A program made the position numbers and the translations under genes. From contig CALGPO010000068.1 in the NCBI GenBank assembly GCA_937960465.1, positions 1-37,592 on the forward strand: a DNA stretch of 37,592 nt, in the 5' to 3' direction. Shown here piece after piece: positions 5,555 to 37,079 of the stretch. Every line of letters begins with the position of its first letter. The first letter of the stretch is position 1. The stretch is from an uncultured bacterium (GTDB lineage Bacteria > Nitrospirota > Thermodesulfovibrionia > Thermodesulfovibrionales > Dissulfurispiraceae). A model generated the notes under the pieces. That model was not told where the DNA came from and searched no databases. It saw nothing but the letters and a program-made list of their open reading frames with translations.

Positions 5555-6668
5555 TTACTTCTTAGTATTTGTTAAGATTTTTAAATATCCCTTGATAAAG
5601 ATATCAATATCTCCATCAAGAACTGCATCCACATTTCCGACCTCTATATTAGTCCTGTGGTCTTTAACAAGCCTGTAAGGCTGAAGCACATAAGACCTTA
5701 TCTGATTTCCCCATGATATTTCCTTTTTATCGCCTACTATACCCTCAAGTTTCTGTTCCCTCTCCTTGAGAGACATATCATAGAGCCTCGATTTTAATAT
5801 CTTTATTGCAACTTCCCTGTTTCTGTGCTGTGATCTCTCACTCTGGCAAGAAACTATTATTCCTGTAGGAATATGGGTAATCCTTACAGCAGATGAAACC
5901 TTGTTCACGTGCTGTCCACCTGCACCTGAGGCCCTGAATGTATCTATTTTCAGATCCTCATCCCTTATCTCTATCTTAATATCATCCTCTATTTCAGGAT
6001 ACACAAGCACGGCAGAAAAAGATGTATGCCTTCTCTTATTTGCATCAAAGGGCGATATTCTTACGAGTCTGTGTATACCGGCTTCTGCCTTCAGATAGCC
6101 ATAGGCATAAGGTCCTTCAACCGTAAAGGTCGCTCCCTTTATTCCAGCCTCATCCCCTATTTGTAAATCAACTATTTCTGTCCTGTAACCATGCGTCTCA
6201 GCCCATCGCAGGTACATCCTCATCAGCATCTGCGCCCAATCCTGGCTCTCTGTACCTCCTGCACCTGGATGGATTGTCACTATTGCACTATTTTTATCAA
6301 CATCTCCTGAAAGGAGGAGTTTTGATTCTATGTCCTCTAAATTTTTTCTGAGCTCATCAGCCTCTCTTTTAATATCCTCGAAGAATATCTCCCCCTCATC
6401 CTCGCTCAGGATTGCAAGAGAGTCCTCAAGGTAAAGGATCTTGTTTATTGCATTTTCTACAGGCCATATGGTCTCTTCGATATTGGTCTTTGCCTTCTGT
6501 AGACCCCTCAGTTTTTCTGGAGAAGACCATACGTCTTCAGATGAGAGTTCCTTCTCTATATTAGACAGTTCAGTCTTAAGTCTGTCGACATCAAAGATAA
6601 CCTCTTAAAGAGGCTGCCTTCTCTTTTAATTCAGAAATATAATCTTTAAGCTCGTTCTGTAACAACAT
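5555..6668 (-). CDS. prfB: peptide chain release factor 2, with programmed +1 frameshift at CTT TGA (6591-6596)
   Basis: Zero frame MLLQNELKDYISELKEKAASLRGYL-TGA joins in +1 to DVDRLKTELSNIEKELSS..., then the ORF with GAGGTESQDWAQML and GAGGQHVNKV; about 370 aa. Confidence 0.95.
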
Positions 6669-6693
6669 GTCTATTCCTCCGTCACTCATTAAC

Positions 6694-8292
6694 TTATATA
6701 CTTTTTCTTTTAATCAACAGCAACACCGAACAAACAATGCATAGATACGAAAATATATCCCCGTATTTCGTATATGGGGTCAGTGTCCTGTCTGTTTTTA
6801 TATCCTTAACTAAAGATGTTCTATCAAACAATTTTGTTGTACCTACTATTCTTCCGCTGCTGTCGATAAATCCAGAGATCCCTGTATTTGCAGCCCTTAT
6901 AACAGGTTTTCTGTTCTCTATAGCCCTGAACACAGCCATGCTGAAATGCTGATAAGGGCCGTGAGTTTTTCCAAACCATGCATCGTTGGTGATGGTCACA
7001 ATAAAGTCTCCCCCTCGGACATAAAACTTCCTAACAAGGCCCGGAAATACGATTTCGTAACAGATTAGCGTACCGAAACTTCCGAAGGGGGTCACTGCCT
7101 TTATATAACTATCCCCGGGGATGTAATCCCCTATGCCGACAACCAATTTATCAATAAAGAACAAAAGGTTTTTTAGGGGGACATACTCTCCGAAAGGAAC
7201 TAGATGTAGTTTATCATAGATATATGAGATATTTCCATTTTTATCAAGGAGCACAGCGCTGTTGGTATATAACATTTGGCGTTGAGCGTCATGCGTCGTG
7301 CGCTTAACTCTTGACCCTTGACTCTCAACGCTGTTTGTTCTCTGTTCCTTGGCCAGTACACTCCCGAAGAGGAGGTAAGAATTCAACTGCTTCTGAAAGG
7401 AGACGAGATTTTCTGTGAATTCCCTGTCTCTTCCAAAATAAAACGGGACGGAGGTCTCTGGCCACACAATAATATTGGGGTTGTCCAGGGACACAGCAAG
7501 GGAAAGCTCCTGATATGTGTTTATAACAGCATTCTGGTATGCGGGATCCCATTTCTTGTCTTGCTCTATATTGCCCTGAATTACAGCAGCCCTTATACTA
7601 AATCCATCCCTTTTCTGGTTGAGTTTATAAAGGCCGTAGGAAAAGGTCGATAAAAGAGCTATAAAGAGTATTACAAAGCCGATGGTGGTTGGAATAAGAG
7701 AATAAAGGGGCCGCTCCAGCCGTCTCTTTTTTAATAAAAGGGCATCGGCGAAGGCGCCATTGATTGCCACCAAAAGGAAGGAGATGCCGTAAACGCCTGT
7801 GATATCCGCAACCTGTATGAATGCTAAAAACTTATATTGACTGTAACCGAGACTTGACCATGGAAATCCGGTCATGGCATATGAACGGCCAAACTCAAGT
7901 ACAGTCCAGAAGACAGGAGCCACAAGCATCACGGGCAGGTCGGTTTTTCTTATATATGACGAATATAAAAATGAAAACAGTGCAGGATAAAGGCTCAGAT
8001 AGAGGCACAGGAGGAGAACTATCAGAATACTCGGAACAAATGGTATAGAGCCGTATTGGTTTATTGAGTGGTAAATCCAGTAGGTTGTGCCGAAGAAATA
8101 TACTATACCAAAGAAAAACCCCGCCTTAAATGCCTCTTTCTTATCTTTATCGTAAAGAAACACAAACAAAGGTATAAGGGCAACCCATGCAAGGAGATAA
8201 AGATCTATCTTTGGAAAAGACAGAATGAGCAAAAGCCCTGATAATAGGGCAGGTCCGTAAAGTTGATTGAATTTTGCCTTGAGATTGTTCAT
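6694..8292 (-). CDS. lnt: apolipoprotein N-acyltransferase
   Basis: 532 aa; multi-TM N-terminus, nitrilase-fold domain (VWPETSVPFYF, KLHLVPFGEYVP, LICYEIVFPGLVR). Confidence 0.95.
   Translation of the reverse strand: MNNLKAKFNQLYGPALLSGLLLILSFPKIDLYLLAWVALIPLFVFLYDKDKKEAFKAGFFFGIVYFFGTTYWIYHSINQYGSIPFVPSILIVLLLCLYLSLYPALFSFLYSSYIRKTDLPVMLVAPVFWTVLEFGRSYAMTGFPWSSLGYSQYKFLAFIQVADITGVYGISFLLVAINGAFADALLLKKRRLERPLYSLIPTTIGFVILFIALLSTFSYGLYKLNQKRDGFSIRAAVIQGNIEQDKKWDPAYQNAVINTYQELSLAVSLDNPNIIVWPETSVPFYFGRDREFTENLVSFQKQLNSYLLFGSVLAKEQRTNSVESQGSRVKRTTHDAQRQMLYTNSAVLLDKNGNISYIYDKLHLVPFGEYVPLKNLLFFIDKLVVGIGDYIPGDSYIKAVTPFGSFGTLICYEIVFPGLVRKFYVRGGDFIVTITNDAWFGKTHGPYQHFSMAVFRAIENRKPVIRAANTGISGFIDSSGRIVGTTKLFDRTSLVKDIKTDRTLTPYTKYGDIFSYLCIVCSVLLLIKRKSI
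7279..7333. repeat. degenerate 7-bp tandem tract inside lnt
   Basis: gttgagc gtcatgc gtcgtgc gcttaac tcttgac ccttgac tctcaac; bounded by inverted GCGTTGAG / CTCAACGC. Confidence 0.7.
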
Positions 8293-32666: not shown

Positions 32667-33530
32667 ATGCAAGGAAACATGATGACACACCATAAGTTAA
32701 TAATTGGCAATTGTATGAGTATGCAAGAAATACCAGATGAAAGTGTTCATTTAATGTTAACATCACCACCTTATTTTAACGCACCATTTGATTATAAAGG
32801 ATTGTTTAAGAATTATGATCAGTATTTAAGCGTATTAAATAGAGTAGCTCGGGAAGTATTTAGAGTGTTACAAAATGGCAGAATTGCTGTATTAAACATT
32901 GATGATATGCTTGTAAATGGTGAAAAATTTCCAATCGTTGCTGATGCCACAAAAATATTTCAATCCGCTGGTTTTAGATATAGAGATAGAATGATATGGA
33001 AAAAACCTGACGGTTATTTAAGAATAAGCAGAAGGAGTGGGGTAATTTTACAAAATCCTTATCCAATGTACTTTTATCCCGATAATCTTTTAGAAAGTAT
33101 AATAATATTTCAAAAGGGCAAATTCGATTATCGATCAATACCAAAAGAAGTAAGGGAAGAGTCAAAAATTGATATAAAAGAATTCTCTGATAATAAATGG
33201 TATATGACACTTTGGGAAATGGTTAATGTTTTGCCGGGTTCACCCTTAGAAAAAGAGATTGCTGCTTTCCCTGAAGAGTTACCCTATAGAGTTATAAAGT
33301 TATTTTCTTACAAAGGAGAGACAGTATTAGATCCATTTGCAGGAAGTGGAACCACTATGAAGGTAGCCAGACAACTTGGAAGAAACAGCATAGGAATAGA
33401 AATTAAAAAATCTTTAATTTCTATAATTAAGAAAAAACTAGGTTTTGATGGGCAATTAAATCTTGATAATCGGGATGATACTTTTGAAGTAATAATAAGG
33501 GAAGGCGGCAAATATGGATGTATCAGCTAA
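32667..33530 (+). CDS. beta-class DNA methyltransferase (N4-cytosine or N6-adenine)
   Basis: Motif IV TSPPYFNAPFDYKG precedes motif I DPFAGSGTTMKVA; alternative start at 32679/32682. Confidence 0.92.
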   Translation: MQGNMMTHHKLIIGNCMSMQEIPDESVHLMLTSPPYFNAPFDYKGLFKNYDQYLSVLNRVAREVFRVLQNGRIAVLNIDDMLVNGEKFPIVADATKIFQSAGFRYRDRMIWKKPDGYLRISRRSGVILQNPYPMYFYPDNLLESIIIFQKGKFDYRSIPKEVREESKIDIKEFSDNKWYMTLWEMVNVLPGSPLEKEIAAFPEELPYRVIKLFSYKGETVLDPFAGSGTTMKVARQLGRNSIGIEIKKSLISIIKKKLGFDGQLNLDNRDDTFEVIIREGGKYGCIS

Positions 33531-34587
33531 AGTAACAGGTATAAAATATACTCCATTTTTGTGTCGTCCAATGAATCAATATGGCATATCCGAAATAGAT
33601 TTTGCTTTTAGTAATGATGCAGCATTTATACTAAATATTCAAGAAAATAAACAAGTTGCTTTGAGCTGGTGGGTATCTCCAAAGAGAACAAGATCATATC
33701 CTTATGCAAGAGTGTATGACACTTTAAATTTTCAGGGTAAAAAATCAACGATAATTCCTATCCTAAAAGATGAGGGAAAGGAGGGAGATAGAGATTTTTT
33801 ACAGTGGGACACTGTTTCTTTAATGAGTTTGTTGGGTGTTTATGTGATTATTGGTTACTATAAAATAGCTGAACGAAGTTTAAGATATAGGCATAAAATA
33901 ACAAATCAAAAATTTGATATTCAACATATTAAAGAGAAACTAAATAACCTTTTATCTTACCAATCAGATGCCTTGCATTGGAATCTTGCACAAATTGAAG
34001 AAGTTGCTGAAATTGCTCAGAAGGCATTGGACTCATACAAAAAAATTGCAAAAAAACTTGATGTTGAAATGCATTCAAAAGAAACCGCTGAAAAAAGAGT
34101 TAAGGAACTTCTTAAAGGAAAGGAAAATTTTATGGGACTTTCCCGAACATTAGCAGAGAAGGCACAAAGAAGAGAATTCGTAACAGTTCAACCAAAAGAA
34201 AGATTATCTGGGATCAAAGCCACTTTAACAATTAAAAACTATCTTGGAGGGTATTATTTCTTTACCTGTGATGAGGTAAATATTGAAAAAGGAGTTATCT
34301 ATCTAATAGAGGGAAAACACAGCAAGCTAAGTTCTATTCCTTCATTAGAAGATATAAAGGATGGTTTAATAAAAATGATTTTGTTTACAAATTTAAAAGA
34401 AGTAAAAATAGGGTCAACGGAATATACTCCTATGCCAATATTAAAACTTACAACAGACGTAGATTTTTCAACCAATAAGTTAAGAAATTCTCATATTAAT
34501 ATTTTGCGTCTTCTCAAAAAAGAAGCAGAAGAAAATGGTTTTCAAGTGTTAATTAACAAAACTAATTTGGATACAATTGATCTATAA
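33514..34587 (+). CDS. putative type II restriction endonuclease partner
   Basis: 357 aa, 17-bp overlap with the methyltransferase; PD-(D/E)xK-like DEVNIEKGVIYLIEGKHSK. Confidence 0.7.
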   Translation: MDVSAKVTGIKYTPFLCRPMNQYGISEIDFAFSNDAAFILNIQENKQVALSWWVSPKRTRSYPYARVYDTLNFQGKKSTIIPILKDEGKEGDRDFLQWDTVSLMSLLGVYVIIGYYKIAERSLRYRHKITNQKFDIQHIKEKLNNLLSYQSDALHWNLAQIEEVAEIAQKALDSYKKIAKKLDVEMHSKETAEKRVKELLKGKENFMGLSRTLAEKAQRREFVTVQPKERLSGIKATLTIKNYLGGYYFFTCDEVNIEKGVIYLIEGKHSKLSSIPSLEDIKDGLIKMILFTNLKEVKIGSTEYTPMPILKLTTDVDFSTNKLRNSHINILRLLKKEAEENGFQVLINKTNLDTIDL

Positions 34588-34652
34588 GCTAATGATATAC
34601 TCCTGTAGAAATTACCATAAGATAAAAGTCCTCAAGTTTAGATTATTTTAAG

Positions 34653-34918
34653 ATGAGGATTGATCAAAATACATTAAAGTTGTAGGGGCAATTCATGAAT
34701 TGCCCCTACATGCTATCAGGTATTTTGGTGAAGATTGCGAGATAAGGATCTTTGGTTCACGGATAGATGACTCTAAGAAGGGTGGGGACATAGACATCTA
34801 TATTGAGACCTCTTTAGAGGCAGGTCCTGAGGACAAGGCAGGATTCCTTGCAGACCTGAAGCTTGCGATTGGTGACCAGAGGATAGACCTCTTTACTTGG
34901 AAGCGCAGCGCATTCTAA
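34653..34918 (+). pseudogene. MNT-type nucleotidyltransferase remnant interrupted by a palindrome
   Basis: MRIDQNTLKL then out-of-frame AIRYFGEDCEIRIFGSRIDDSKKGGDIDIYIE; 30-bp palindrome between them. Confidence 0.7.
34681..34710. repeat. 30-bp perfect palindrome TGTAGGGGCAATTCATGAATTGCCCCTACA
   Basis: Direct reading; every position pairs. Confidence 0.95.
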
Positions 34919-35161
34919 AAAAAGGCGCTACCATCTGGATTACAGGAACTTACCATAGCATCGGGGTAATAAATGTTGTTCTTCAGGATTTAGGGTTCAA
35001 GATATGGCAAAGGCGGTTGACCTCAAAGGCGCTCCGTATAAGAATTTGAAGGAGTATAAGGAATATAAGAAGTTGAGGGAGTAAGATGATAGAAGTGGAA
35101 CAGTTTGTTTATGAACGAGATAGGGAGACATTTCGGCGGATAGTCTTTGGAGAACTGAAAG

Positions 35162-35923
35162 ATGACCGATAAAAGACCAGAAGTTCTTGAAAATGCACCG
35201 TTGCAATACGCGCCAGAAAATGAGCTGGGAGTTGTTTTTCTATTTTCACATATTTCAAAAAAACTGCGAGTTAGGGTTGAAAGCATTAGACCGCAATTCC
35301 CTGATTGTGTTGCATACCAAAAAACCTCTCATGGTGAAAAACGAATAAGGATTGAATTTGAGTATCGCTCAAGCAGTTTCAAAAGCCATAATCACTCAAG
35401 CAGAAAATGCGATTGGATAGTTTGCTGGGAGCATGATTGGCCTGAAGTTCCTAAAAATCTTAAAGTAATTGAACTTAGGAACTATTTTGGATTAGGTTTC
35501 AAGGTATGGATCCAACCTTATAATATCAAGCAACTAAATGGCCGTTGTCTTACAAATAAAGAGTCTTGGGGTGTTTCTAAACGAGCATCCTCTGGTGACC
35601 TATTATTAATGTATGCCAATAGACCCAAACAATGTATTGAAGATATTTTTTTGCTTACGGAAAAGCCTAAGCTTGGCAGGGCTGGATGGCGTGAGGGCGA
35701 CTGTTACCGGGGAGTGATTAAGAGAGTATGTAAACTTAAAAGTCCTATTTTTTTAGATGACCTAAGACAGCATAAAATCATCAAAACAGCCGGGTTTATC
35801 AAAGCTCATCTGCAAGGCAATAGCAATGTTACGGAATATTGGCCTCATCTGTATAGAATGATAGTAAATAGAAATCCAAGTATTAAGAAAAAGATTATTA
35901 AGTATGCACCGGAAAAGTTATAA
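35162..35923 (+). CDS. predicted nuclease domain fused to EVE/PUA-like domain
   Basis: N-term FPDCVAYQKTSHGEKRIRIEFEYRSSSFKSHNHSSRKCDWIVCWEHDW; C-term SWGVSKRASSGDLLLMYANRPKQCIEDIFLLTEKP. Confidence 0.65.
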   Translation: MTDKRPEVLENAPLQYAPENELGVVFLFSHISKKLRVRVESIRPQFPDCVAYQKTSHGEKRIRIEFEYRSSSFKSHNHSSRKCDWIVCWEHDWPEVPKNLKVIELRNYFGLGFKVWIQPYNIKQLNGRCLTNKESWGVSKRASSGDLLLMYANRPKQCIEDIFLLTEKPKLGRAGWREGDCYRGVIKRVCKLKSPIFLDDLRQHKIIKTAGFIKAHLQGNSNVTEYWPHLYRMIVNRNPSIKKKIIKYAPEKL

Positions 35924-35942
35924 CGAAAATATTAGAATCAAT

Positions 35943-37004
35943 ATGACTATCACCAATAAACAGATAGCATTAATAGACGACCCTGCATTCCCCTCAACCC
36001 GTTTTCAAGGAAGCAAGCTGAAGATAGTTGACTGGATTTGGGAGGCTATTAAGGATTTGGATTTTAATTCCGCTCTTGATGCTTTTGGCGGAACTGGGTG
36101 TGTTGGCTACATGCTAAAGGAAAAGGGCAAAAAGGTTACATATAACGATATTTTGAAGTTTAACTGGTACATCGGACTTGCGCTGATTGAAAATGACAGA
36201 GTTACATTAACAGACAACGAAATTGACTTTCTTCTTACAATGCATGATGAAATTAAATATCCAACTTTTGTTTATGATACCTTCAAAGATATTTACTTTA
36301 CTGATGAGGAAAACCAATGGATTGATATGGTAGTAACAAATATAAATCTCCTTGATGACATTTATAAAAAAGCCCTGGCCTATTTTGCGCTTTTTCAGGC
36401 ATGTATTATTAAAAGACCCTTTAATCTTTTTCACAGGAAGAATCTTTATATAAGATTTGCGGAGGTTAAAAGAGACTTTGGGAATAAGGCTACATGGGAT
36501 ACCCCTTTTGAAGTCCATTTCAGAAAATTCGTTGACGAGGCTAATCAAGCAGTCTTCTCAAACGGACAACATAATAAGGCGTTAAATTTAGATGTCTTTG
36601 ACATTGGAGGAGATTTTGATCTTGTCTATATTGACACCCCTTATATCTCAAAAGCCGGCGTTGGTGTTGATTATTTCAGTTTTTATCATTTCTTGGAAGG
36701 ATTGGTTAATTATCCCAAATGGGCAGAGATGATAGATTATCGGACAAAACATAAAAAATTAAAGGGAAACGGCTCTGTATGGATTAATAAAAATCAGATT
36801 CATTCTGCCTTTGATAGATTGTTTGAGAAATTTCAAGACAGTATCTTAGTTGTTTCTTACAGGGCTGACGGCATTCCGTCTATTGAAGAACTGGAAAACC
36901 TGCTGAGCAAATACAAACCAACTGTGCAAGAAATAAAACGGAAAAATTATAAATATGTTTTAAGCACCAATCATTCTGAAGAAGTCTTATTAATCGGGAG
37001 ATAA
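35943..37004 (+). CDS. D12-class N6-adenine DNA methyltransferase
   Basis: STRFQGSKLKIVDW, DAFGGTGCVGYMLK, motif IV variant YIDTPYIS; start MTITNKQ preferred over 35904. Confidence 0.85.
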   Translation: MTITNKQIALIDDPAFPSTRFQGSKLKIVDWIWEAIKDLDFNSALDAFGGTGCVGYMLKEKGKKVTYNDILKFNWYIGLALIENDRVTLTDNEIDFLLTMHDEIKYPTFVYDTFKDIYFTDEENQWIDMVVTNINLLDDIYKKALAYFALFQACIIKRPFNLFHRKNLYIRFAEVKRDFGNKATWDTPFEVHFRKFVDEANQAVFSNGQHNKALNLDVFDIGGDFDLVYIDTPYISKAGVGVDYFSFYHFLEGLVNYPKWAEMIDYRTKHKKLKGNGSVWINKNQIHSAFDRLFEKFQDSILVVSYRADGIPSIEELENLLSKYKPTVQEIKRKNYKYVLSTNHSEEVLLIGR

Positions 37005-37007
37005 ACA

Positions 37008-37079
37008 ATGCTTGCTAAGCGGATAATACCGTGTCTTGATGTAAAGGATGGAAGGGTTGTAAAGGGTGTCTCCTTATAA
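37008..37079 (+). pseudogene. hisF: 5' remnant of hisF (imidazole glycerol phosphate synthase cyclase subunit)
   Basis: MLAKRIIPCLDVKDGRVVKGV then SL-stop. Confidence 0.9.

Follow-up and report, generated by a model that had tools for sequence, protein, structure and literature searches.

Fusions of an EVE domain with a nuclease are known from predicted and characterized restriction enzymes. Bell, Wolf and Koonin (2020, PMC7641849) predict EVE-PD(D/E)XK fusions to be type IV, modification-dependent restriction enzymes, and EVE-nuclease fusions are a recurrent type IV architecture in that work. VcaM4I, an EVE-HNH modification-dependent endonuclease, flips 5mC and 5hmC with its EVE domain, and those EVE domains whose ligands have been studied bind modified bases (PMC7897488).

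We analyzed a window of 37,592 nucleotides (contig CALGPO010000068.1 of an uncultured Nitrospirota bacterium), in which a putative nuclease-EVE gene is followed by a D12-class DNA methyltransferase gene (Table 1). The nuclease-EVE protein has an EVE domain and a probable PD-(D/E)XK-type nuclease domain in one chain, and a predicted role in modification-dependent restriction, in common with the predicted EVE-PD(D/E)XK enzymes of PMC7641849; compared with that class, it carries ExE instead of ExK, and its nuclease domain belongs to a family that has no Pfam, NCBIfam or PADLOC model. It is most likely a new member of this predicted class. VcaM4I resembles it in the fusion of an EVE reader to a nuclease and in the fold of the EVE domain (6yex). 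In contrast to VcaM4I, the nuclease is N-terminal in the window protein, which reverses the domain order, and its nuclease has a fold other than HNH. In the HNH_repeat (PF18780) proteins of loci such as L003, L004 and L037, the domain that is N-terminal in the window protein recurs at about 42-52% identity, with D48 and E67 kept, but their targeting module is HNH_repeat rather than EVE and their nuclease domain is C-terminal. The methyltransferase falls into the M2 subfamily of EcoRV-like restriction-modification (R-M) systems of Nitrospirota (methylase M1, EcoRV-family R, D12 methylase M2), with identity of up to 91% and the same DTPY motif. Unlike in those systems, M1 and R are mere remnants in the window, and the system to which D12 belonged no longer works.

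Coding regions and domain composition

The two open reading frames (ORFs) are located on the same strand and are nearly contiguous, with an overlap of 20 bp if D12 starts at 35904. The true start of D12 is probably near 35943, because its homologues mostly have 355-361 aa. The sizes of the two ORFs, their near-contiguity and the sequence motifs quoted in the earlier note are all found in the window, as is the DTPY motif IV of the D12 protein, FDLVYIDTPYISKA. Both ORFs appear to be real genes rather than chance ORFs, since the nuclease-EVE protein has full-length homologues at 63-37% identity in a scan of GTDB species genomes, the close homologues of D12, which occur in the same phylum, have 91-61% identity, and the dN/dS of D12 between the window and genome G005 is 0.057 (NG86, dS 0.74). 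Searches of the 253-aa protein against NCBIfam and PADLOC gave no match, a protein query against plasmids, phages and viral contigs gave 0 matches, and Foldseek against BFVD gave nothing at E <= 0.001.

Table 1. Features of the window around the nuclease-EVE and D12 genes.
Feature	Position	Strand	Evidence and remarks
N6_N4 methylase of the second R-M pair	32667-33530		Pfam 3.8e-45
Type II restriction endonuclease (REase) of the second R-M pair, overlapping its methylase gene	33514-34587		PADLOC PDLC03572 at 2.2e-97
MNT nucleotidyltransferase gene, truncated copy interrupted by a palindromic repeat	34650..34891	+	blastn 98-100% to L101 (contig C36), 252-476
M1 remnant (N6_N4_Mtase family), 35 residues	34900..35004	+	83-94% identical to M1 of relatives; E to 8.6e-17
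EcoRV-family REase remnant, last about 30 residues	34989..35078	+	E 1.9e-10; blastn to L126 at 35001-35071, 82%
Putative nuclease-EVE gene, 253 aa	35162..35923	+	ORF; 24 full-length homologous loci; AlphaFold2 (AF2) pLDDT 94.2
Predicted N-terminal catalytic domain, PD-(D/E)XK-like, residues 14-107	35201..35482	+	75-sequence alignment; AF2 topology
C-terminal EVE domain (predicted fold), residues 113-253	35498..35920	+	Pfam EVE; Foldseek PDB matches
D12-class DNA methyltransferase with DTPY, orphan M2, 366 aa	35904..37004	+	Pfam MethyltransfD12 2.7e-13; homologues and their neighbors; dN/dS
68-bp fragment of the hisF start	37008..37075	+	Starts 4 bp after the D12 stop; full hisF on contig C36

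The C-terminal half of the protein is established as an EVE domain at the level of the predicted fold. For the AF2 model (pLDDT 94.2), the top Foldseek matches against the PDB are the EVE proteins 2gbs (6e-6), 1zce, 2ar1 and 1wmm, together with 2eve; the VcaM4I structure 6yex is also among the top matches (E 4e-4), and YTH structures occur among the matches as well. The matches to EVE structures have a probability of 1.00 and TM-scores by target of up to 0.65. The Pfam EVE model (PF01878) matches residues 132-225 of the window protein with E 0.063 and 13.7 bits, against a curated cut-off of 23. It is matched by 11 of 21 full-length relatives at E <= 1 (best 2.8e-8), and two relatives checked singly, L024 and L025, reach 33 bits against the same cut-off. 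When the family profile was compared with PDB sequences, two EVE structures ranked first, at E 0.03-0.09 only. The EVE/PUA fold proposed for this half in the earlier note is thus borne out by the model, by the EVE structures at the top of the Foldseek search and by the Pfam matches of relatives.

The N-terminal half is probably a nuclease. Its element order, H21-31, E37-42, E49-55, E58-69, H71-75, E85-90 at high pLDDT, was taken from the DSSP assignments of both AF2 models and judged by eye; it follows the alpha-beta-beta-beta-alpha-beta core of the PD-(D/E)XK order. Residue E21 lies on helix 1, P47-D48 precedes strand 2, E65-x-E67 is in strand 3, and the CDxIVCW motif is in strand 4. Across 75 aligned sequences E21, P47, D48, E67, C88, W89 and W93 are invariant and E65 is nearly so. 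In terms of the catalytic motif PD...(D/E)xK, the lysine position is occupied by E67 (ExE), a departure that counts against the nuclease assignment; ExE in place of ExK is also present in BamHI. Foldseek with the isolated domain gave no significant match: the best has E 0.28, and the weak matches, none below this value, include SwaI, BamHI, Cap4 and Bax1. None of the sequence profiles of known nuclease families matches the domain, and its own profile found only chance-level matches to VPS26 among PDB sequences. The restriction-like nuclease suggested by the earlier note is thus probable from the PD-(D/E)XK topology and the invariant D48 and E67; the structure search adds no significant match.

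The same domain occurs with several fusion partners. Dozens of further loci in the GTDB species genomes match only about residues 14-107 of the window protein. The domain is fused to HNH_repeat in L003, L004 and L037, and to DUF5655 in L034 (in L030 DUF5655 is below the cut-off); L033, L076 and L084 have different C-terminal parts attached to it. Many of the loci L030-L050, L063, L067 and L077, from both archaea and bacteria, have a DUF5655-like C-terminal domain after the nuclease domain, and in L033 and L076 the nuclease domain is followed by another C-terminal domain. DUF5655 was not named in the literature that our search returned, and PF18780 was mentioned there by one paper, in another context. 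The acidic residues are kept while the fusion partner changes, which is the behavior that would be expected of a nuclease module. A widespread nuclease domain that has no Pfam, NCBIfam or PADLOC model and is common to EVE-, HNH_repeat- and DUF5655-bearing proteins merits a family model of its own.

Distribution of the nuclease-EVE gene

Homologous loci with full-length or nearly full-length proteins were collected from GTDB species genomes of about ten phyla (L006-L029, n=24); among these, L020 and L027 carry split or truncated genes and L029 ends at a contig end. None of the 24 loci has a D12 homologue near the nuclease-EVE gene, with at least 1.5 kb of downstream sequence available in 18 of them. 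Neighboring genes are unrelated: the 94 neighboring ORFs include one DNA methylase, a divergent one in L011, and no conserved defense neighbor was seen at these loci. Conversely, the nuclease gene is absent from all 11 related D12 loci of other genomes. The co-occurrence expected of a type II R-M pair is thus not found on either side (0/24 and 0/11). The absence of a cognate methylase, as in type IV enzymes, is observed at the level of genomic context only.

The nuclease tree mixes phyla. The window protein has its closest relatives in other phyla, the nearest in Planctomycetota (L006), and the other two Nitrospirota members are placed elsewhere in the tree, which has few well-supported branches. 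The nuclease-EVE gene is solitary and scattered and probably moves horizontally, and it probably adjoins the D12 methylase by accident. In two Saccharicenans genomes (L020, 5764-6570, and L027, 4846-5354) the gene looks as though it is decaying, with its nuclease and EVE portions either separated or shortened.

Conservation of the gene pair had been named in the earlier note as a check, and lack of co-occurrence elsewhere as a refutation, of its proposal that the two genes form an undescribed R-M or modification-sensing system, possibly a self-versus-nonself switch. The pair is missing from the 24 nuclease loci and from the 11 other D12 loci, the usual partner of D12 is an EcoRV-family REase, and the switch is left with no comparative support. 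The lead of a new pair is thereby removed, and the neighborhood is explained by the decay of an EcoRV-like system.

Origin of the D12 methyltransferase

The order M1 methylase, REase, D12 is intact in L131, L132, L134 and L135. The REase of this M1-R-M2 system belongs to the EcoRV family (PF09233 at 3.5e-110; PDB EcoRV at 6e-40). Both the neighbors of its relatives and its sequence relationship place the window D12 as M2 of such a system. The DTPY motif, regarded in the earlier note as unusual compared with the common DPPY, is the normal motif IV of this D12 subfamily and is present in 11 of its 12 members. AlwI and DpnII were considered as D12 partners from plasmid matches of 32-37% identity, and were displaced by the EcoRV-like partner of the relatives with 61-91% identity.

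Upstream of the nuclease gene, a deletion near 35000 has joined the M1 remnant to the REase remnant. The earlier note overlooked these two remnants at 34900-35078. From the sequence comparisons, D12 can be identified as the surviving M2 of a decayed EcoRV-like M1-R-M2 system. Its dN/dS of 0.057 points to purifying selection, so that the gene probably still encodes an active orphan methylase. The survival of D12 under purifying selection after REase loss represents a clean case of an orphan methylase arising.

Locus L126 of genome G005, from the same family as the window genome, contains hisA, a longer REase remnant, a repeat-like spacer of about 190 bp, an intact D12 and hisF. The gap between D12 and hisF is 3 bp both there and in the window, and the nuclease gene is absent from this D12-hisF locus. 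Among the 12 D12 loci seen, the nuclease lies between a dead REase and a surviving M2 in one lineage only. In our reading, an EcoRV-like M1-R-M2 system was once located between hisA and hisF; deletion has reduced M1 and R to remnants, and the nuclease gene is now found between the R remnant and a still-selected M2.

In L134, a gene with an Mrr_cat domain (5761-6816; 3.3e-5) is located between the EcoRV-like R and D12, in the slot that the EVE nuclease takes in the window. Mrr-type enzymes are also modification-dependent. Because of this gene and this property, the slot between R and D12 may attract genes of modification-dependent nucleases, and the position of the window gene may not be wholly accidental.

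Possible functions

We consider it reasonably probable that the 253-aa protein acts on its own, as a type IV-like (modification-dependent) restriction endonuclease made of a single chain, and that D12 is a bystander. The EVE domain would probably hold a modified base after flipping it out, and this base is most likely a modified pyrimidine of phage DNA, such as a modified cytosine. The PD-(D/E)XK-type domain (E21, D48, E65-x-E67) would then cut DNA close by, probably in dimeric form, and would need neither ATP nor a cognate methylase. A rival reading, unlikely in our judgment, is that the nuclease cuts at sites set mainly by sequence or structure, as a homing- or repair-type enzyme, with EVE as a general nucleic-acid-binding module. 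The nuclease domain is often fused to HNH_repeat, a homing endonuclease associated repeat, and most of L030-L085 have either a long N-terminal part ahead of this domain, which is HNH_repeat in those that were scanned, or a tail resembling DUF5655 behind it; a solitary gene scattered over phyla is also expected of a selfish nuclease. This is countered by the modified-base binding of EVE domains with studied ligands (PMC7897488), by the status of EVE-nuclease fusions as a recurrent type IV architecture (PMC7641849), and by the listed nuclease-EVE loci, where an unsystematic look noted neither an intron or intein nor a target gene that had been disrupted. Action on RNA, or a toxin-like effector role, is very unlikely. 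EVE/PUA-family domains also bind modified RNA, RNA binders are known among EVE domains and the related YTH/ASCH folds (YTH is among the Foldseek matches), and MNT genes or fragments lie upstream in L006 and in the window, but the PD-(D/E)XK-type topology and the HNH_repeat fusions point to DNA and no antitoxin-like neighbor is conserved.

Cooperation of the nuclease and D12 as an R-M or modification-sensing pair, with m6A as the self mark, has little probability. It draws on the adjacency and common direction of the genes and on the strong purifying selection on D12, which still does something though its own R is gone. The distribution speaks against it, with D12 near none of the 24 nuclease-EVE loci and the nuclease at none of the 11 other D12 loci; D12 usually has an EcoRV-family REase as partner; and G005 has the D12-hisF arrangement with an intact D12 and no nuclease. 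A related scenario is that the broken EcoRV-like operon took up the nuclease-EVE gene in its R slot, and that the nuclease now relies on the retained D12 methylase for its self-mark. There is room for it because the Mrr_cat nuclease of L134 occupies the same slot, and we give it a similarly slim chance. If true, it would make a hybrid R-M system with a modification-reading nuclease in place of the type II enzyme.

Other features of the neighborhood

Apart from this block, the window contains another R-M pair, apparently intact, at 32667-34587, also between hisA and the hisF fragment; its REase (33514-34587) gave no match against plasmids. The surroundings of the nuclease-D12 block are rearranged. 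A whole MNT-HEPN-hisF arrangement is present on contig C36, and the MNT copy and the hisF start of the window, which lie on either side of the block, duplicate parts of it (L101). Pieces resembling a REP-type transposase are found at both contig ends, which suggests that the window contig and C36 adjoin.
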